This document shows, piece by piece, positions 30,399 to 41,732 of a DNA stretch of 64,000 bases. The translations under genes were made by a program, and so were the position numbers. The notes beneath the pieces are model-generated. The model made no database searches. It saw only the letters and a program-made list of their open reading frames with translations, and was not told where the DNA came from. This DNA is from Aggregatilineales bacterium (GTDB lineage: Bacteria; Chloroflexota; Anaerolineae; Aggregatilineales; Ch27). Within the stretch, counting starts at the first letter, position 1. Every line of letters starts with the position of its first letter. The DNA lies in contig JARKOQ010000005.1 of NCBI GenBank assembly GCA_029976005.1, forward strand, positions 1 to 64,000, written 5' to 3'.

Positions 30399-32486
30399 AT
30401 GAACAGGGTGAACTTCACTGGCGAGCAGATTGGACCTTATATTGTCCGGGAGAGAATCGGCCAGGGCGGCATGGCGGACGTCTATCGCGCCTTTCAGCCG
30501 TCGGTCAAGCGTGAAGTCGCACTGAAGGTTATCCCGCTGTTTGCCACGGGCCAGCAACAGGAGGTGCAGCTTCGCTTCAAGCAAGAAGCGGAGATGATCG
30601 CCTCTCTGGAACACCCGCATATCCTGCCCGTATTCGATTATGGGATTACCGATGAAGTTCTGTATCTGGCGATGCGGCTGCTGCGGGGCGGAACCCTGCG
30701 CGAACTGCTGCTGCGGGGCCTGATGCCCATCGATCAGGCGGCCGATTTGTTCGGCCAGGTTGCGCTGGCGCTGGGGCATGCCCACCGCCGCGGCGTGATT
30801 CACCGCGATCTCAAGCCCAGCAATGTCATGATCGATACCGAGCAGAATGCCTATCTGGCCGATTTCGGATTGGCCAAGGTACTCGGCGGATCTTCCCAAC
30901 TCACCACCACGGGGTCGATCATCGGCACGCCGGCCTACATGTCGCCTGAGCAGCTTCGGGGCGATCCGATCAATCACCGTTCGGACATCTACAGCCTGGG
31001 CGTGATCCTGTATCACATGCTGGCGGGGCGTCCGCCTTTCGAGGCGCTGACGACCTTCTCCCTGATCTACCAGCACGTCGAAAAAACACCACCGCCGCCG
31101 CGCGAATTCAACCCGCAGATTCCGCCCGATGTCGAACTGGTCATCCTAAGGGCTTTGCAGAAGAACCCGGACGAACGGTTCGAGAGCAGCGAGCACATGA
31201 CCGAGGCGCTCAATATCGCTCTCGGACGCAAGACCAGGCTGGACCCAAGCCTGCTCCAACCAACGCCGGATACGGTCGTGCTGCAAACATCCTCCCTGCC
31301 ATACCGGGGGGCGATCGATTCTGGCTCCGGCTCGATTCCGCCGTCGTCTTCCGGCATGACTGCGCCGTCGGGTGGATTGAGTGGGGCAACTTCACAGACG
31401 GTGTCTAACGTGGCAGCCCGGTCGAAAGGGCGTTTGCAGGCCAGAGGGCTGCTCGCTGCCCTGGCGCTGGTCGTGTTGGGTGGCCTGGCGGCGCTGATTC
31501 TCATCCTGACACAGAGTAATCCACCGCTCAAGCCGGCCGAGGTCCTGATGGGTGAAACGGGTACCCCTGAGGACGTGATCCCGACGGAACGGGAGATCGG
31601 GCTTGCCCGGCAATACCTGGGCAGCAGCGGTTTTATTGCATTTATTGTGTGCAATGAAGGCAGCGAGTTTTTCGCCGGTCAGGCGCGGCGGATGGCGGAC
31701 ATTGCCGCGCAGTGGAACCTGGATTTTCAGCGGTATGACAGCCGGACGGATGCCAACCAGCAGATCATCCAGATCGAGCGCGCCCGCGCGGATGGCGCCC
31801 GCCTGCTGGTGGTCTGCATCGTCGATGCCGAGATTGTCAGCGATACCCTCAGCGCGGCGGCCAAGGCCGGGATTCCCCTGATCCTTCAGAACATCAGCGA
31901 TCCACCGTCCTACAAAGGCGTCTTGATCACCCATGACAACTATCAACTGGGACAGGCTCCAGGTCGCTACGCGGGCCAGTACGTCGCGGAGCACATGGGT
32001 GGCGAGGCGAACGTCGTCATTCTGGATTATCCGGATTTGCCCGCGATCGTGGCGCGAGCCAACGGCTTGCAGGATGGCTTGCTCGAATTCGCGCCCGACG
32101 CGCACATCGTCGGACGCTATCTCGGCGGAACTTCCGAGTTCGCTGAGGAGTCGATCCGCGCTTTGATCGAGCAGGACATTCATTTTGACGTGATCCTCAG
32201 CATCAACGATGCTGGCGCGTACGGCGCGATCAATGCGCTATCCGCGGCGGGATTCAGCCCCGATTCCGTGGTCATCACTGGCGTGGATGCCGAAGTTCTT
32301 GCCCGGCGATATATTGCTGATGGCTATTTCATGCGGGCATCCGTCGGTGTGGGACAGGACGAGATTCCCCAGGTGGCGCTCAATCTCGCGGTCAAACTGA
32401 TGGCTGGGGCGACCCTGCCGCAGGTTATCTATACCGAGCCGGGCGATCTGATCACCGCGGAAAACGCGAATTCGGCCGGATCGTGA
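30399..32486 (+). CDS. Transmembrane Ser/Thr kinase with RbsB-like extracellular sugar-binding domain
   Basis: Residues 12-275 are a complete PknB-type kinase: glycine loop GQGGMADV (21-28), Lys43 in VALKVI, HRDLKPSN (Asp137), DFGLAK (155-160) and SPEQLRG. After a Ser/Gly-rich juxtamembrane linker there is one helix (about 350-371, LLAALALVVLGGLAALILIL). Residues 410-690 form a periplasmic-binding-protein type I domain (FIAFIVCNEGSEFFAGQARRM, ARLLVVCIVDAEIVSDTLSAA, DVILSINDAGAYGAINAL, VVITGVDAEVL), as in ribose/galactose-binding proteins. The design suggests a receptor kinase: an extracellular small molecule, probably a sugar, controls cytoplasmic phosphorylation. PknB-like kinases more often carry PASTA or other sensors. 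GNAT and membrane GAF genes follow. Confidence 0.9.
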   Translation: MNRVNFTGEQIGPYIVRERIGQGGMADVYRAFQPSVKREVALKVIPLFATGQQQEVQLRFKQEAEMIASLEHPHILPVFDYGITDEVLYLAMRLLRGGTLRELLLRGLMPIDQAADLFGQVALALGHAHRRGVIHRDLKPSNVMIDTEQNAYLADFGLAKVLGGSSQLTTTGSIIGTPAYMSPEQLRGDPINHRSDIYSLGVILYHMLAGRPPFEALTTFSLIYQHVEKTPPPPREFNPQIPPDVELVILRALQKNPDERFESSEHMTEALNIALGRKTRLDPSLLQPTPDTVVLQTSSLPYRGAIDSGSGSIPPSSSGMTAPSGGLSGATSQTVSNVAARSKGRLQARGLLAALALVVLGGLAALILILTQSNPPLKPAEVLMGETGTPEDVIPTEREIGLARQYLGSSGFIAFIVCNEGSEFFAGQARRMADIAAQWNLDFQRYDSRTDANQQIIQIERARADGARLLVVCIVDAEIVSDTLSAAAKAGIPLILQNISDPPSYKGVLITHDNYQLGQAPGRYAGQYVAEHMGGEANVVILDYPDLPAIVARANGLQDGLLEFAPDAHIVGRYLGGTSEFAEESIRALIEQDIHFDVILSINDAGAYGAINALSAAGFSPDSVVITGVDAEVLARRYIADGYFMRASVGVGQDEIPQVALNLAVKLMAGATLPQVIYTEPGDLITAENANSAGS

Positions 32487-32564: not shown

Positions 32565-33119
32565 ATGAGCGTGGAACAACATCTCACTTTCGCGATCCGG
32601 CCCGCAACCGCGGACGATTTACCCGCCTGCCTGGGACTGGATCATACGTCCGTCAGTGAATACGTGTGGCAGGTTGAAGCCGATCAAGTCCCGGATGGGA
32701 TGACCTATAATTTCCGAACCGTCCGCCTGCCTCGACCCATGTCGATTCTGTATCCGCACGAGCCTGAAGTCACATTGCAGGCCTGGCAGCTCCGGGATTA
32801 CTTCATCATCGCGGAAGGCGAGCATGGGATTTACGGCTACCTCAGCATGCATGCCGATCGGGTCTACAGCATTGGATGGATCAGGGCGCTGGTTGTCGAC
32901 CGGCCTCGCCGGCGGCTGCGCGTAGGGAGCGCCCTGCTGCTTCACTCCCAGCGCTGGGCCAGGATGAATGGTCTACGCCGGATCACAGTGGAAACGCAGA
33001 CCAAGAACTATCCGGCGATTTCATTTCTTCAACGCCACGGCCTGACCCTGTGCGGCTTTAACGATCGTTACTTTCTCAACCAGGATATCGCGCTCTTTTT
33101 CACTCAGAGCGTGCGGTAG
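32565..33119 (+). CDS. GNAT-family N-acetyltransferase
   Basis: This 184-residue protein has the GNAT fold: an early IRPATADDLPACLGLD, a central IGWIRALVVDRPRRRLRVGSALLLHSQRWA with the acetyl-CoA pyrophosphate loop (R-R-x-x-R-V-G-S variant of Q/RxxGxG/A), and KNYPAISFLQRHGLTLCGFND near the C-terminus. It would acetylate an amine of a small molecule or protein; the substrate is unknown. It lies 78 bases after the receptor kinase gene and 14 bases before the 7TM-GAF gene, so the three may form an operon. Confidence 0.82.
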   Translation: MSVEQHLTFAIRPATADDLPACLGLDHTSVSEYVWQVEADQVPDGMTYNFRTVRLPRPMSILYPHEPEVTLQAWQLRDYFIIAEGEHGIYGYLSMHADRVYSIGWIRALVVDRPRRRLRVGSALLLHSQRWARMNGLRRITVETQTKNYPAISFLQRHGLTLCGFNDRYFLNQDIALFFTQSVR

Positions 33120-33133
33120 TCTATGCTCGATTC

Positions 33134-35071
33134 ATGAACCCTGAACTCGAACTGTCATTTCTAGAGACGATCAATGAGACCCTGACCGCGATCATCGTGA
33201 TCGTGTCGGTCTCGATCCTGTTGTACAACCTGACTCGCAACCTGAGGGCGCGGGTAGCGCGCACGTCCAGCGTGCTGCTGGCCTGCGTGACGGGCGTCTA
33301 CATGGTGGACGTGCTGACCTCGCTTGATCCCACACTGGCCTCGCTCCGGGCGTGGCTGCGCGTGCAATGGGTGGGCATTGCCTTCGCACCGGCAGCCATG
33401 TTCCACCTTTCCGACGCGCTGCTGGCGACCACGGGGCTTGTCTCACGCGGGCGGCGGCGGCGTACGACTCGCGTGTTGTACGGTCTGAGTCTGGTCTTTC
33501 TCCTGCTGGCCCTGTTCACCGACACGGTGGTGTATGGCCTGGTGATGTCTCCGGCTCCACACCTGCTGCCGGGGCCTCTCTTCCTGGTCTACGCAGCCTA
33601 TTTCCTGGTCGCGGTGATTGTCTCGATCTACAACGTGATGCGGGCCAGGAAACGCTGCCGCACAACCTATACCCACCGCCGGATGGGCTATCTGCTGTAC
33701 TCGTTCACACTGCCCGCCTTCGGGATTTTTCCGTATTCACTGTTGTTCGGGGGGACTCAAAGCTCACCGCTGCTGTTCTGGTCGCTGGTCATCCTGAGCA
33801 ATCTCGGCATCGCCCTGATGCTGATCTTCATCTCGTATCCGCTCTCCTTTTTCGGCTCCAGCATCCCGGACCGGGTGGTGAAGTCCGAGTTGCTGAGCTT
33901 TTTCCTGCGCGGACCGGCTACGGGCATCTGGGTCCTGCTGGTGGTCCTGTTCCTCCCCCGCGCGGGGCGCGTCATGGGGCTCCAGAGCGAGGATTTCATG
34001 CCGTTCGCGGCGGTGGCCGTGGTCATGTTCTGGCAATGGGCAGTGTCGGTGCTGCTGCCTCCGCTCGAACGCATTCTCGTCTTTCAGGCCGATCAGGAGC
34101 AGGTCAAGACCATCCAGTCGATCGGCCAGCGTCTGCTCACTTCCAGCGATCTCGATCAACTGTTCGAGGCTATTCTGGCCGCCAACTGCGATCTGCTTCA
34201 GGTCCCCGTGGCGTTCATTGCCACTTCCGAGGGAGAGCAGGTCGTGATCAAGCAAATCGTGGGTAGTTGGACTCCCGGCGAAGACTGGGATGGCAGCGAT
34301 CTCAAGCGCCTTTTCGCGGATGGTCGCGCCAATCCCGACGAGATCGCGATCTGGGATGAGTTCTGGGTAGTGCCCTTGTACAGTGTGCGGATGGTCAATG
34401 GCGCCGCGAACGGCAATGGGCACAACCGTTTGCTGGGGGTGCTGGGCGTGCAGGCCCGCGCGGAGAGTCCGAATCTATCTTCGGACGAGCAGCATGTGTT
34501 CGAGATGCTGGTGCACCGCGCGGCTCAGGCGCTGGACGACCGGCTGCTGCAAATGGACGTATTTGCTTCCCTGGAGGGGCTGCTCCCCGAAATGGAGGCG
34601 ATCCAGCAACTGCGGGACATGACGCGCTATGGCGACTTTCCCGTCTTCGCGGCCTTGCAGAGTAGCGGTGAAGACCACGCCGATGTCGGCTTTGCCAACG
34701 CGGTCTTCGATGCCCTGCGGGACTATTGGGGCGGCCCCCGGCTGACTCAGAGTCCGCTGCTCAACCTGACTGTGGTTCGCGCCGCGATGCCGGAGAACGA
34801 TGGGAATCCGACCAAGGCCCTGCGCGCCGTGCTCCAGGAAGCCGTGAGCCGGCTGCGCCCGGTGGGGGAACGCAGCATGACCCGGTCGGAATGGACCCTG
34901 TTCAACATTGTCGATCTGCGCTTCGTGCAGGGCTACAAGGTGCGCGACGTCGCGACGCGGCTGGTCATGAGCGAAGCGGATCTGTATCGCAAACAGCGAG
35001 TTGCGGTTGAGCAGGTTGCGCGCGTTCTGGCCGACATGGAACGGAGCGCCAAGGAAAGCCAGACCCTGTGA
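33134..35071 (+). CDS. Multi-TM, GAF and helix-turn-helix protein
   Basis: This 645-residue protein has about nine helices in residues 15-310, the first seven resembling the 7TM input module of some histidine kinases. A GAF-like domain follows (about 325-465, beginning QSIGQRLLTSSDLDQLFEAIL). No histidine kinase or cyclase domain is present. The C-terminal part (about 480-640) ends in EWTLFNIVDLRFVQGYKVRDVATRLVMSEADLYRKQRVAVEQVARVL, whose last ~45 residues resemble a sigma-70 region 4-type HTH. It could be a membrane-bound sensor/transcription factor or a scaffold. It sits in a likely operon with the receptor kinase. Confidence 0.7.
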   Translation: MNPELELSFLETINETLTAIIVIVSVSILLYNLTRNLRARVARTSSVLLACVTGVYMVDVLTSLDPTLASLRAWLRVQWVGIAFAPAAMFHLSDALLATTGLVSRGRRRRTTRVLYGLSLVFLLLALFTDTVVYGLVMSPAPHLLPGPLFLVYAAYFLVAVIVSIYNVMRARKRCRTTYTHRRMGYLLYSFTLPAFGIFPYSLLFGGTQSSPLLFWSLVILSNLGIALMLIFISYPLSFFGSSIPDRVVKSELLSFFLRGPATGIWVLLVVLFLPRAGRVMGLQSEDFMPFAAVAVVMFWQWAVSVLLPPLERILVFQADQEQVKTIQSIGQRLLTSSDLDQLFEAILAANCDLLQVPVAFIATSEGEQVVIKQIVGSWTPGEDWDGSDLKRLFADGRANPDEIAIWDEFWVVPLYSVRMVNGAANGNGHNRLLGVLGVQARAESPNLSSDEQHVFEMLVHRAAQALDDRLLQMDVFASLEGLLPEMEAIQQLRDMTRYGDFPVFAALQSSGEDHADVGFANAVFDALRDYWGGPRLTQSPLLNLTVVRAAMPENDGNPTKALRAVLQEAVSRLRPVGERSMTRSEWTLFNIVDLRFVQGYKVRDVATRLVMSEADLYRKQRVAVEQVARVLADMERSAKESQTL

Positions 35072-36490: not shown

Positions 36491-39205
36491 ATGTGGGCGC
36501 AGTTCTGGGATTGGATACAAGGTAAACCGGGTTCAATGGCGGGTCAAAAACAACCACCGTTCTGGCAATCCACACTGGATAAGCTCAAAAGCAGGCTCAA
36601 GCGATCCCCTGGCGCGAAGCCGCCGGCTTCGAACCGAGGCGGACGGCGACGCGCGGGCGTGACTCCGGCTCAACGGGTTCAAGATTTCGTTGAACGGGCG
36701 CGAGATATCCTTGCCAATCTGCCGGAAGGGAGCGACGAGATCGCGGCCCTCCTGCTGTTGGTATTTGGCGTGGTTTCCCTGCTGGCGCTGCTCAATTTCT
36801 CGCCGGAGGAGGCCGTTACCAGCAGTTGGGCGCAGGCTATTCGCCAGCTTTTCGGGTTGGGCAGCTTTGTGGTTGCGTTCGGCATCCTGGGGTTGGCCGT
36901 GATGATTCTGCTGCCCAAGCTGAACCTGGAACTCCAGTGGCATTTTCCGTGGTCGAGGCTGCTGGCAATCGAGATAGCCTTTATTTCGCTGCTGGCGCTG
37001 TTTCACTTGCTGGCCAACGATCCTGAGCCGCGCGCCCTGGCGCGCGCCGGGGGTGGCGGAGGATACGTCGGCTGGGCGCTGAGCCAACTGGTGGCCGTGG
37101 TCTTCGACCCGATCTCCTCGACGATCCTGTACGGTCTGATCTTCCTCATCGCGCTTGGCCGGGCGGCTGGCATCCGGCGAAGCCATCTCAGCCTGGTTTT
37201 GAACTGGCTGCGCGAGTCTGTCCAAAAACTGGCCGACCGGCTTGAGAAGGAGACGGAAGAGCTGGCCGATCGGGCGGAAGCGTCCGCTTCCTCGGAACCC
37301 GCGCCCGTGGCAGCACCGGCGCGCCTGGCGCGGCCTTCGGTGGTGCCACGCCAGGCGCCCTTGCCACACGTGCGCCCGGCGGTCAGCCCACCGGCCAGCG
37401 ACGATGCCGACGAGGATGGCTTTGCCGAGGAGGATTCCGAGGACGACTCGTGGCTGGATCGGGAGCATTTACCGCATTACGTCCAGCCCGATCAGGAACG
37501 ACTGGAACGCGGGCTTAGCTCGCCCGGTATTCCCGGTGAGCGGCCATCCGTCGTCCAGCGCGACGAGGAGGATGGCTCGGCCATGCCGGCGCTGGCCCGG
37601 CCCAAGAAGGCTTCGACCGCCTACAAGACCGTGCGCGGGGCGGATGGGCAGATCATCCGGCAGTTCAGCGTGGATGATCTTCAGGAGCAGCGCAAGGTGG
37701 GCAAGCGGCAGGATGAACTGCCCCCCTTTGATCTGCTCGAAGACAACGACCTCAATCGCCCAACCGACGAGGAGATCAACAAGAACGCGCGGATCATCGA
37801 AGAAACCCTGCGCGAATTCGACATCCACGTGGAAGTTGTCGACATCAAGATCGGGCCGGCCGTGACCCAATACGCGGTTCAGCCTTTCAAGGAGATGATC
37901 AATGAGGAGGGCGAACGGTTCCTGTACCGGGTGCGGGTAGGGCGGATCGCCGCGCTGGAGCGCGACCTGGCCCTGGCGCTCTCCGCCAAACGGCTGCGCA
38001 TCCAGGCCCCCGTGCCGGGCCATACCTATGTCGGCGTGGAAGTGCCGAACCGCGAGCCGAGCATTGTTTCCCTGCGGGGCGTGATGGAGAGCGCGACCTT
38101 CTATCGCCAACGGTCACCGCTGGCCTTGCCGCTGGGGCGCGACGTGTCCGGGGCCTCTTTCGTGGCCGATCTGGCGACGATGCCTCACCTGCTGATCGCC
38201 GGGACGACCGGCTCCGGCAAATCGGTCGCGCTCACGGCGATGACGGCGGCGCTGGTCATGAACAACCCGCCGGATCGCCTTAAGCTGGTCCTGCTGGATC
38301 CCAAGATGGTGGAACTGACCCGCTTCCAGGGATTGCCGCATCTGCTGGGACCGGTCGAGGTCGAGCAGGAACGCATCATCGGCGTCTTGCGCTGGGCGGC
38401 GCGGGAGATGGATCGGCGCTACAAGCTGCTGGAAGTCGCCGCCGCGCGCAACATCGAGACCTACAACCGGGCGCTGGGTCGCCGTCGCAAGGACGAGCAT
38501 CTGCCCTACGTTGTCATCATCTTCGACGAGATCGGCGACCTGATGCTCTCGCGGCCCGAGGAGACCGAAAAGCTGCTGGCCCGCCTGGCCCAGATGGCCC
38601 GCGCGGTGGGTATTCACCTGATGGTCGCCACCCAGCGGCCGTCGGTGGATGTGATCACCGGGTTGATCAAGGCGAATTTCCCCGCCCGAATTTCATTCGC
38701 GGTGGCGTCAGGCGTTGATTCACGCGTCATTCTGGACTCGGTCGGCGCGGAGACTCTGATGGGGCGCGGTGACATGCTGTATCAGGCGGCAGATGCCGCC
38801 GGCCCGCAGCGCTTGCAGGGCTGTTTCGTTTCAGATGGCGAATTGCAGCGGATTCTGGAGTATTGGGCCGATTGGACCGGGCAGCAGGTCGCCGAAGGGC
38901 TTCTCGACGCCCACCGGGTCTCTCCCTGGGAACGCGGCATGACCCGGCGCGAAATCTTGTCCGAGACCGATCCCATGTTGGAGGAGGCGATTCAGATCGT
39001 GCTGGAAGCCGGAGAAGCCTCCGCCTCGCTGCTTCAACGCCGCATGGGTGTGGGATATCCGCGCGCGGCCCGGCTGATGGACCTCATGCAGGAACTGGGG
39101 ATTGTGGGCCAGGCGACATCTGGCGGCCGGACGCGCGAAGTTCTGTATCGACCGGGCGACGATCCCTTCAAGAACATCGTCGATAAGCGGGTACGGGGCG
39201 AATAA
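36491..39205 (+). CDS. ftsK: FtsK/SpoIIIE DNA translocase
   Basis: This ~904-residue protein has four N-terminal helices (from EIAALLLLVFGVVSLLALL to ILYGLIFLIALG), a long Pro/acidic linker, and the RecA-like motor: Walker A AGTTGSGKSV, Walker B VVIIFDEIGDLM, and MVATQRPSVDVITGLIKANFP. A winged-helix gamma domain (ASASLLQRRMGVGYPRAARLMDLM) at the end would read the polar KOPS-type sequences. It pumps chromosomal DNA through the closing septum. The start is uncertain: the ATG at 36491 overlaps an extended -10 (TGTTACAAT), so the ATG at 36536 may be the true start. Confidence 0.93.
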   Translation: MWAQFWDWIQGKPGSMAGQKQPPFWQSTLDKLKSRLKRSPGAKPPASNRGGRRRAGVTPAQRVQDFVERARDILANLPEGSDEIAALLLLVFGVVSLLALLNFSPEEAVTSSWAQAIRQLFGLGSFVVAFGILGLAVMILLPKLNLELQWHFPWSRLLAIEIAFISLLALFHLLANDPEPRALARAGGGGGYVGWALSQLVAVVFDPISSTILYGLIFLIALGRAAGIRRSHLSLVLNWLRESVQKLADRLEKETEELADRAEASASSEPAPVAAPARLARPSVVPRQAPLPHVRPAVSPPASDDADEDGFAEEDSEDDSWLDREHLPHYVQPDQERLERGLSSPGIPGERPSVVQRDEEDGSAMPALARPKKASTAYKTVRGADGQIIRQFSVDDLQEQRKVGKRQDELPPFDLLEDNDLNRPTDEEINKNARIIEETLREFDIHVEVVDIKIGPAVTQYAVQPFKEMINEEGERFLYRVRVGRIAALERDLALALSAKRLRIQAPVPGHTYVGVEVPNREPSIVSLRGVMESATFYRQRSPLALPLGRDVSGASFVADLATMPHLLIAGTTGSGKSVALTAMTAALVMNNPPDRLKLVLLDPKMVELTRFQGLPHLLGPVEVEQERIIGVLRWAAREMDRRYKLLEVAAARNIETYNRALGRRRKDEHLPYVVIIFDEIGDLMLSRPEETEKLLARLAQMARAVGIHLMVATQRPSVDVITGLIKANFPARISFAVASGVDSRVILDSVGAETLMGRGDMLYQAADAAGPQRLQGCFVSDGELQRILEYWADWTGQQVAEGLLDAHRVSPWERGMTRREILSETDPMLEEAIQIVLEAGEASASLLQRRMGVGYPRAARLMDLMQELGIVGQATSGGRTREVLYRPGDDPFKNIVDKRVRGE

Positions 39206-39254
39206 CGCATCCGGTCTGACTCTGACCCTCTTCTCCCTAAAGCGGAGTGAAATC

Positions 39255-41732
39255 GTGGACGAGAAAAAGAGAACAACCGCATTCAGCCTGTTGGGAATGG
39301 TGCGCGCCATCGGCCTGCGCACGTCGCTCGATTCGGCGGTGTATGACGTGGTGCGGCGCAGGCAGGCCGCCCGCTTCGCCGCGCCGGAGACGCAGCCGGG
39401 ACCGTGGCAGTCTCCCAGCGAACTGAATGCTTTCAAGGCCGATCAGACGGGCGCAGAGTTCCATTCGGACAGCGGCAGCCTGCGCGTCGACGTGGTGGGC
39501 GAGCAGTGTTTCCGCGTACGCTTCGCGCCGGACGGACAGTTCGCGCCGCTGTTTTCGTATGCCGTGGTCGAACGGCGCGATACCCAGCCTGTACCGTTCT
39601 CGATCGTCGAGACCGACACGGCGATTGAGGTGCGAGCCGAGCACCTGGCGGCCGAGATCGGCCGTGACGACCTGAGCGTGCGGATCACGACGCCTGAAGG
39701 GCGGGTTGTGTGCGAGGACGCGGGCGGTATTGCCTGGCGCGGGAAGGCCGTCCGGCACAGCGTCCTGCTGGCAAAGGCTGAGGCCGGGCACGGTCTGGGG
39801 GAACGGGCATTTGGCCTGAACCTGCGCGGGCGGACGTATGGACTCTGGAACACCGATCCTGCCGGTTACGCGCCGGGGGTGGACCCGATCAACCTGTGCA
39901 TCCCGTTCTACGTGGGCCAGGATGGGCAGGGCGCGCGCGGTATCTTCTGGGACAACCCGTCGCGCGGCACGATTGCCGTTGGTGCGGCGGGCGCCGAGGA
40001 TGAGCTGGTGTTCAGCGCCGAGTCGGGCGAATTGTGCTACTACGTGTTCCCCGGCCCGACCCTGAATGACGTGGTGGAACAATACACGGCGCTGACCGGC
40101 CGGATGCCCATGCCGCCGCTGTGGACGCTGGGCTATCAGCAGTGCCGCTGGAGTTACATGAGCGCCGACGAGGTCCGGGGGATCGCGGCGGAATTCCGGC
40201 GGCGGCAGATTCCGTGCGACGCGCTGTATCTGGATATTGACTACATGGATGGCTTCCGGTGCTTCACCTGGAATCCGCGCACGTTCCCCGAACCGGAGCG
40301 GCTGACGGCCGATCTGGCGGCCCAGGGCTTCCGCACGGTCGTCATGATCGATCCGGGGATCAAGCAGGATCACGCTTACGCAGTGTGCAAGAGCGGGTTG
40401 CAGGAGGACGTCTTCCTGAAGTACCCGGATGGCTCGCTCTTCGTCGCGCCGGTCTGGCCCGGCAACTGCTACTTCCCGGATTTCACGAGCGCGCGCGTGC
40501 GCGCTTGGTGGGGGGAGTGGTATCGGGGCATGCTGGACAAGGGCGTGGCGGGTTTCTGGAATGACATGGGCGAGCCGGCGATCTTCTGCATGGCCGGGGC
40601 GGACAAGAACGTGCCTGACTTCGTGCCCCACGATTGGGATGGGCGGGGCGCGACACACCTCGAAGCGCACAACGTGTATGGCATGCAGATGGGGCGCGCG
40701 ACGCGCGAAGGGCTGGAAGCCTTGCAGCCGGATCGGCGGCATCTGGTCATTGTCCGCGCGGGATACGCGGGCGTGCAGCGTTATGCTTCCTCCTGGACGG
40801 CGGACAACCTCTCGACCTGGGATCACCTGCGCGTGACGATCGGGATGTGCCTGAATCTGGGCCTCTCCGGGCTGGCGTTCACCGGGCCGGACATCGGCGG
40901 TTTTGGCGGGAATGCCGACGGCGAGCTGTTCGCCCGCTGGATTCAGCTTGCCACGCTGCTGCCGTTCTTTCGGGGCCATACCGCCAAGGGGACGATCCCG
41001 CACGAGCCATGGGCCTTCGGCCAGCCCTACGAGGATATCAACCGGCGCTACATTGGACTGCGTTACCGCTTCCTGCCCTACCTGTACACGGCCATGGCTG
41101 AATGCGCGACCTACGGCTGGCCGATCATTCGCCCGACGAAGATTCTCGACGCCGCAGTGGGCGACTGTGACGACGCCTACCTGCTGCGGGATGGCGTGCT
41201 GGTCGCGCCCGTGGTCCAGCAGGGCGCCGATCGCCGCCAGGTCCGGCTTCCGGCCGGCGGCTGGTATGACTACTGGACGGGCCAGCCGGTGAAGGGCGGA
41301 GAAACGATCGAGGTCATGGCTCCGCTTGAGCATCTGCCTCTGTACGTCCGGGCGGGCACGGTCCTGCCTCACTGGCCGGCCATGCAACACACGGGCGAGA
41401 GGCCGGTGGACGAGCTTGAACTACGTGTCTATCATGGCGAGGGCGAATCCACCCTGTACGAGGATGCGGGTGAAGGCAAGGCGTACCAGGCTGGAGCCTA
41501 TCGCTGGTCGCGTTTCTTCTGCCAGCCGTCCGCCGCCGGGCTGTCCGTGCGGTGGGAGATTGCCGGCGATTTCCAGCCTGAGTACAGGCGTGCGCGGGTG
41601 CTGGTCTATGGTCTGGCGGCACGACCAGCCAGCGTGCTGGTCGATGACCGGCGGATCGAGGATTGGGACTGGCAGGATGGCGTCTTGACCGTTTCTTGCG
41701 CGCCGTTCGCTTCGCTGGTTGTGAACGGATAG
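39255..41732 (+). CDS. GH31 alpha-glucosidase
   Basis: This 825-residue enzyme has the GH31 layout: N-terminal beta domain, barrel with nucleophile Asp in GFWNDMGEPAIF and acid/base Asp in SSWTADNLSTW, and C-terminal beta domains. DIDYMDGFRCFTWNP and GPDIGGFGG are further family blocks. It would release glucose (or xylose) from alpha-linked oligosaccharides. There is no signal peptide, so it is likely cytoplasmic. The GTG at 39255 is chosen: GGAGTG lies six bases upstream, and the ORF's 51 extra residues overlap the end of ftsK. The usual DMNE is DMGE here. Confidence 0.92.
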   Translation: MDEKKRTTAFSLLGMVRAIGLRTSLDSAVYDVVRRRQAARFAAPETQPGPWQSPSELNAFKADQTGAEFHSDSGSLRVDVVGEQCFRVRFAPDGQFAPLFSYAVVERRDTQPVPFSIVETDTAIEVRAEHLAAEIGRDDLSVRITTPEGRVVCEDAGGIAWRGKAVRHSVLLAKAEAGHGLGERAFGLNLRGRTYGLWNTDPAGYAPGVDPINLCIPFYVGQDGQGARGIFWDNPSRGTIAVGAAGAEDELVFSAESGELCYYVFPGPTLNDVVEQYTALTGRMPMPPLWTLGYQQCRWSYMSADEVRGIAAEFRRRQIPCDALYLDIDYMDGFRCFTWNPRTFPEPERLTADLAAQGFRTVVMIDPGIKQDHAYAVCKSGLQEDVFLKYPDGSLFVAPVWPGNCYFPDFTSARVRAWWGEWYRGMLDKGVAGFWNDMGEPAIFCMAGADKNVPDFVPHDWDGRGATHLEAHNVYGMQMGRATREGLEALQPDRRHLVIVRAGYAGVQRYASSWTADNLSTWDHLRVTIGMCLNLGLSGLAFTGPDIGGFGGNADGELFARWIQLATLLPFFRGHTAKGTIPHEPWAFGQPYEDINRRYIGLRYRFLPYLYTAMAECATYGWPIIRPTKILDAAVGDCDDAYLLRDGVLVAPVVQQGADRRQVRLPAGGWYDYWTGQPVKGGETIEVMAPLEHLPLYVRAGTVLPHWPAMQHTGERPVDELELRVYHGEGESTLYEDAGEGKAYQAGAYRWSRFFCQPSAAGLSVRWEIAGDFQPEYRRARVLVYGLAARPASVLVDDRRIEDWDWQDGVLTVSCAPFASLVVNG

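Follow-up and report, generated by a model that had tools for sequence, protein, structure and literature searches.

The 64,000-nucleotide stretch of DNA analysed here (hereafter called the window) harbours on its forward strand a gene coding for a receptor-like protein, in which a Ser/Thr kinase is followed by a juxtamembrane linker, a hydrophobic helix and a solute-binding domain (Table 1). Searches with Pfam profiles identified a Pkinase domain (176 bits, E = 1.2e-51) and a Peripla_BP_4 domain (115 bits, E = 5.1e-33, profile positions 1-256 of 258), both with scores well over the curated cut-offs, and a single hydrophobic helix, whose core spans residues 351-369, separates the two. The same plan, with kinase, helix and sensor in one open reading frame, was found at 46 of the 49 named genome loci collected with the sensor profile, and therefore chance or chimeric assembly can be excluded as the source of the fusion. 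These data confirm that an intact Ser/Thr kinase is joined in one chain to an intact sugar-transporter-type binding domain, as an earlier sequence-only reading of the locus had proposed in describing a complete PknB-type kinase, one transmembrane helix and a full periplasmic-binding-protein (PBP) type I domain.

Table 1. Features of the receptor-like kinase gene and of the two genes downstream (window positions).
Feature	Position	Strand	Remarks
Whole gene, receptor-like Ser/Thr kinase, 695 residues	30399..32486	+	ATG start
PknB-like kinase domain, residues 14-267	30438..31199	+	Pfam Pkinase
Juxtamembrane linker, residues 268-345	31200..31433	+	Ser/Pro/Gly-rich; basic end ARSKGRLQAR
Single transmembrane helix, about residues 346-371	31434..31511	+	Hydrophobicity, positive-inside rule
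Extracellular region, residues 372-695, PBP type I fold	31512..32483	+	AlphaFold2 on residues 382-695
Peripla_BP_4 match, residues 413-670	31635..32408	+	Pfam
Cys418, invariant	31650..31652	+	Aligns with Ser9 of ribose-binding protein
Cys473, invariant	31815..31817	+	Aligns with Asn of the INPVDSD stretch of 2ioy (RbsB Asn64)
Arg553, invariant	32055..32057	+	Aligns with RbsB Arg141
Asn603, invariant	32205..32207	+	Aligns with RbsB Asn190
Asp630, invariant	32286..32288	+	Aligns with RbsB Asp215
GNAT acetyltransferase gene	32565..33119	+	Downstream, 78-bp gap; adjoins the kinase only in the window's own family
Gene for 7TM sensor region and weak GAF match	33134..35071	+	14 bp after the GNAT gene

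Kinase domain and membrane topology

The catalytic domain is complete from the Gly loop to the APE-type motif, as in PknB-like (Hanks-type) Ser/Thr kinases, with GQGGMADVY, the VAIK Lys43, the alphaC Glu63, HRDLKPSN, DFG and SPE all present. In 47 aligned fusion kinases, Lys43, Glu63, the HRD Asp137, Asn142 and the DFG Asp155 are invariant wherever a letter is present. The protein belongs to the same kinase family as the PASTA kinases PknB and Stk1 and shares with them the order of kinase, juxtamembrane linker, single transmembrane helix and outer sensor. Unlike them, it is devoid of PASTA repeats, for which Pfam gave no match. Its match to the NCBIfam PASTA-kinase model ends at residue 371, and with a score of 314.6 bits for NF033483, versus a cut-off of 450, assignment to the PASTA-domain PknB/Stk1 kinases was ruled out.

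Searches of the window's genome (82% complete) gave 25 matches to the kinase and 37 to Peripla_BP_4, and only the window gene figures in both sets as a fusion. Ten other kinases of this genome, scanned for further domains, carry PD40 beta-propeller, SH3_3, RskA_C, 2TM or 3-keto-disaccharide-hydrolase-like domains or no further Pfam domain, and PASTA is absent from all ten. The initial remark that PknB relatives usually carry PASTA or beta-propeller sensors is therefore only partly true here.

The residues flanking the helix are asymmetrically charged. Of the 15 residues preceding the helix in the window protein, four are Lys/Arg, as is one of the 15 that follow it; the corresponding means over 47 fusion proteins are 3.3 and 0.8, and in 46 of these 47 the Lys/Arg are more numerous before the helix than after. 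This positive-inside pattern, a signal based on charge bias only, predicts a single-pass receptor with the kinase inside and the solute-binding domain outside. Free-standing members of the sensor subfamily begin with signal-peptide-like helices, as expected of an extracellular domain. Both lines of evidence agree with the outside, rather than cytoplasmic, location first suggested for the C-terminal domain.

Fold and ligand pocket of the outer domain

The PBP type I assignment of the C-terminal domain was borne out by profile, by sequence comparison with solved structures and by predicted fold. Compared alone with solved structures, the outer domain retrieved sugar-binding proteins (4irx, E = 1.6e-14; 2ioy, E = 4e-11), and a 46-sequence profile retrieved 2ioy (2.9e-31) and the Escherichia coli ribose-binding protein 1dbp (1.5e-22). 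An AlphaFold2 model of residues 382-695, generated with the 46-sequence alignment, has a mean pLDDT of 95.8 and a pTM of 0.89. Its top Foldseek match is the ribose-binding protein 2ioy (E = 2.9e-19, TM score 0.90 by target length), and the next ones include arabinose-, myo-inositol- and galactofuranose-binding proteins. The full-length profile match and the two-lobed fold identify the domain as a PBP type I of the sugar-type Peripla_BP_4 family.

The sensors of 50 kinases and 11 free-standing sisters share six invariant residues, Cys418, Cys473, Arg553, Asn603, Asp604 and Asp630. The ligand contacts of RbsB include Arg141, Asn190, Asp215, Asp89, Arg90 and Gln235. The Arg/Asn/Asp trio is common to the window sensor and the RbsB/CUT2 proteins (2ioy, 1dbp, 4irx), as are the fold and an aromatic pair, Phe424-Phe425, which aligns with RbsB Phe15-Phe16 and whose second member is His in most relatives. 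The window sensor differs from these proteins by being membrane-anchored and C-terminal to a kinase, by having lost other contacts, as Asp89/Arg90 correspond to Asn498/Ile499 and Gln235 to Val651 in the 2ioy alignment, and by the addition of two invariant pocket-rim cysteines. Cys418 and Cys473 are located at the C-terminal ends of model strands 31-36 and 86-92 and occupy the positions of pocket-rim residues in ribose-binding protein.

The loss of the equivalents of Asp89, Arg90 and Gln235, together with a score of 37.8 bits for the RbsB equivalog model versus a cut-off of 337, does not support a ribose receptor proper. Because the Asp89/Arg90 pair, a ribose contact in RbsB, is not kept, the ligand is probably not ribose. 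The label 'RbsB-type' initially given to the sensor thus holds for the fold but not for the sugar, the RbsB ligand residues being only partly kept. An Arg at position 500, fixed in the free-standing relatives, is also lost. With the changed RbsB contacts, this makes the nature of the ligand unsure, and it may differ from that of the free-standing relatives. Other positions, e.g. 428, 432, 477, 496, 500, 503 and 549, are fixed in the free-standing proteins yet vary in the kinases. Constraint outside the central pocket thus appears relaxed, as expected of a domain freed from transporter work, and some of these positions may have served for permease docking.

Distribution, relatives and gene neighbourhoods

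Strong matches to the sensor were found in 68 of the 154 genomes of the window's order, and in 33 of 90 when high-quality genomes are considered. Nearly all are frames of about 600-770 residues, and the fused form appears to be present in about 63 genomes; about 40% of the genomes of the order keep the fusion. The records are named Anaerolineae, Chloroflexi, Aggregatilineales bacterium and similar; two are labelled otherwise (Pleurocapsa, Bacteroidetes), both being metagenome bins with sequences that fall among the rest in the sensor tree. In a sample of 298 genomes of the class, every frame of fused length came from the order, and four genomes outside it had frames of 354-395 residues. Among 400 genomes sampled from the phylum, with at most five candidates scored in each, only the window's own protein and one 27%-identical frame of 380 residues turned up. 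In these samples, the architecture looks confined to Aggregatilineales-like Anaerolineae. As this design is conserved across one Chloroflexota order, the fusion is probably a real receptor. Viral and plasmid origins were rejected, since a search of viral contigs gave no encoded relative, and none of 72,556 plasmids had a place covering 80% of the protein.

In a tree built from 62 sensors with two outgroup rows, a branch with a support of 91 has all 51 kinase sensors on one side, and a kinase-domain tree sets the fusion kinases apart from 17 further kinases encoded in the window's genome, with a support of 94. The sensor tree was not clean when five outgroup sequences on very long branches were used, and these results are therefore consistent with a single origin without proving it. 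The trees could most simply be read as a single fusion, after which the gene was inherited and locally duplicated.

The free-standing sisters belong to a conserved operon, complete or partial at ten places (L040, taken as the reference, L037-L039, L041 and L168-L172). It encodes a SorC/DeoR-type regulator (PF04198), the binding protein, an RbsC-like BPD_transp_2 permease, an RbsA/AraG-like ATPase, a SIS protein with similarity to GlmS/NagB-II and a PfkB kinase, and in some instances a protein of approximately 700 residues without Pfam match. As the operon serves to take up and catabolise carbohydrate, our best guess for the ligand of the subfamily is a sugar or sugar derivative. The location of these exported sisters in CUT2 sugar-uptake operons also indicates that a sugar transporter was probably the source of the receptor's sensor. 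The window protein itself is not a CUT2 transporter subunit, being fused to a kinase; no RbsC- or RbsA-like genes were found next to it, whether in the window or at the loci of relatives that were read. The reference locus (L040:7601-16799) is an apparently uncharacterised sugar catabolic operon, whose 717-residue protein matches no Pfam or NCBIfam model; genes for an FGGY kinase and a phosphotriesterase-family protein are found nearby on the opposite strand.

The neighbours of the receptor kinase genes vary between subsets of loci. Like the GNAT gene, the 7TM-GAF gene is a neighbour of the kinase in no family but the window's own. Its product starts with a 7TM sensor region of the histidine-kinase type, but no histidine-kinase domain was found in it, and it has a sub-threshold ECF-sigma match near the C-terminus. 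At 22 of 46 receptor-kinase loci, a divergent gene for an exported protein of approximately 350 residues with a Peptidase_C39_2 domain and weak TPR matches lies directly upstream (e.g. L075:1572-2654). The window's own family lacks this linkage, with C39 homologues elsewhere in the window genome, and two or three copies of the C39 family are present in each of the six genomes tested, with or without linkage to a kinase. A GH31 glycosidase gene is found near the receptor kinase in the window (39102-41732) and in several distant relatives (e.g. L045:223-2613, L117:5149-7470); it is possibly a hint to the ligand, or a coincidence. As the GNAT and 7TM-GAF genes are restricted to the window's family and the C39 and GH31 genes to other subsets, no neighbour fixes the function.

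Candidate mechanism and alternative readings

We propose that the protein is a single-pass receptor kinase whose outer, CUT2-related domain would act as a Venus flytrap, closing around a small ligand outside the cell. This ligand is most likely a monosaccharide, or a close derivative of one, but not ribose. By analogy with PknB, the receptor is assumed to form dimers, and closure, transmitted through the single helix, would rearrange the two chains in the membrane and thereby start or stop trans-autophosphorylation of the PknB-like kinase. Once active, the kinase would phosphorylate cytoplasmic targets on Ser/Thr. We consider this reading likely. A bolder version, to which we give somewhat less than an even chance, is that a Chloroflexota order converted a binding protein of sugar transport into a dedicated Ser/Thr receptor kinase, all in one chain, that recognises one specific monosaccharide derivative. 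This derivative would probably be unusual and might engage the two invariant cysteines at the pocket rim.

The change of several polar RbsB contacts would also suit a sensor that binds an exported protein or a cell-envelope polymer, using the PBP fold as a docking module and reporting on the state of the envelope as PASTA kinases do, and the C39-peptidase-like genes next to almost half of the kinases could point to such envelope work. However, Arg553, Asn603, Asp604 and Asp630, deep in the cleft, form with their neighbours the most conserved part of the domain, and the C39 family occurs in all tested genomes irrespective of linkage; we consider docking of this kind unlikely. The same conservation bears on the idea that the PBP domain has degenerated into a relic, sensing nothing and only tethering the kinase in the membrane. 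Although a relative has one highly diverged tandem copy (L035), the full length of the domain, its high-confidence model and the invariance of pocket and cysteines in 50 sequences that have otherwise diverged point to selection acting on the cleft, and we regard a relic as extremely improbable.

The close relatedness between the sensor and CUT2 binding proteins, and the presence of both fused and free-standing forms in several genomes (G055, G060), raise another scenario, in which the sensor would dock on a CUT2 permease, with the kinase modifying the transporter or its regulator in response to transport activity rather than to free ligand. Against it, none of the loci read has a transporter or other sugar-uptake gene adjoining the kinase, the kinases vary at many positions that do not change in the free-standing form, and no close free-standing partner of the sensor was found in the window's genome, 82% complete as it is; we deem this scenario very unlikely.

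Solute-binding domains have been linked to Ser/Thr kinases before. A 2005 survey listed, under periplasmic protein domains, kinases of Streptomyces with a solute-binding domain of the Glu/Gln type and a kinase of Nostoc (PCC 7120) with an ANF_receptor domain of the branched-chain amino-acid type (PMC1262709). These also carry kinase and periplasmic-binding-type sensor on one chain, with a proposed role in solute sensing, but they are single cases with amino-acid-type sensors, whereas the window protein has a sugar-type (CUT2) Peripla_BP_4 sensor and belongs to a conserved lineage. In the GlnH-GlnX-PknG system of mycobacteria, from which solute-binding proteins were proposed as a new input class for Ser/Thr kinases, a solute-binding protein outside is likewise proposed to control a kinase inside (PMC6069109). 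That system, however, comprises three separate proteins, has an amino-acid ligand (Asp/Glu) and has a kinase without transmembrane segment, in contrast with the single chain and sugar-type PBP I domain of the window protein. The design, called uncommon in the sequence-only reading, is indeed so, but it is not unprecedented, given the kinases described in 2005. We found no description of the Peripla_BP_4-kinase lineage in the open-licence literature; its novelty lies in the sugar-type sensor, in a conservation that extends to about 40% of the order's genomes and in the transporter-operon context, which narrows the ligand search.

Ligands of PBP-type sensors are routinely found by thermal shift. 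Since the sensor is well folded and of this tractable class, and since its sisters belong to catabolic operons, the question of which molecule would switch the receptor kinase is directly testable, the operons narrowing the field. If confirmed, flytrap control of the kinase would represent a direct pathway from sugar to Ser/Thr phosphorylation in bacteria, whose Ser/Thr kinases respond to mostly unknown stimuli, the identification of which has been called an outstanding question (PMC6069109).

We also identified tandem arrays of two or three receptor kinases with diverged sensors (L016/L035 in G012, G488:C522 and G551:C201), which suggest duplication and new ligand specificities. In one genome (G015, L032 / L121 and L017 / L109), a free-standing binding domain is tandemly duplicated within one open reading frame, and the same genome also holds a receptor-kinase gene interrupted in frame.
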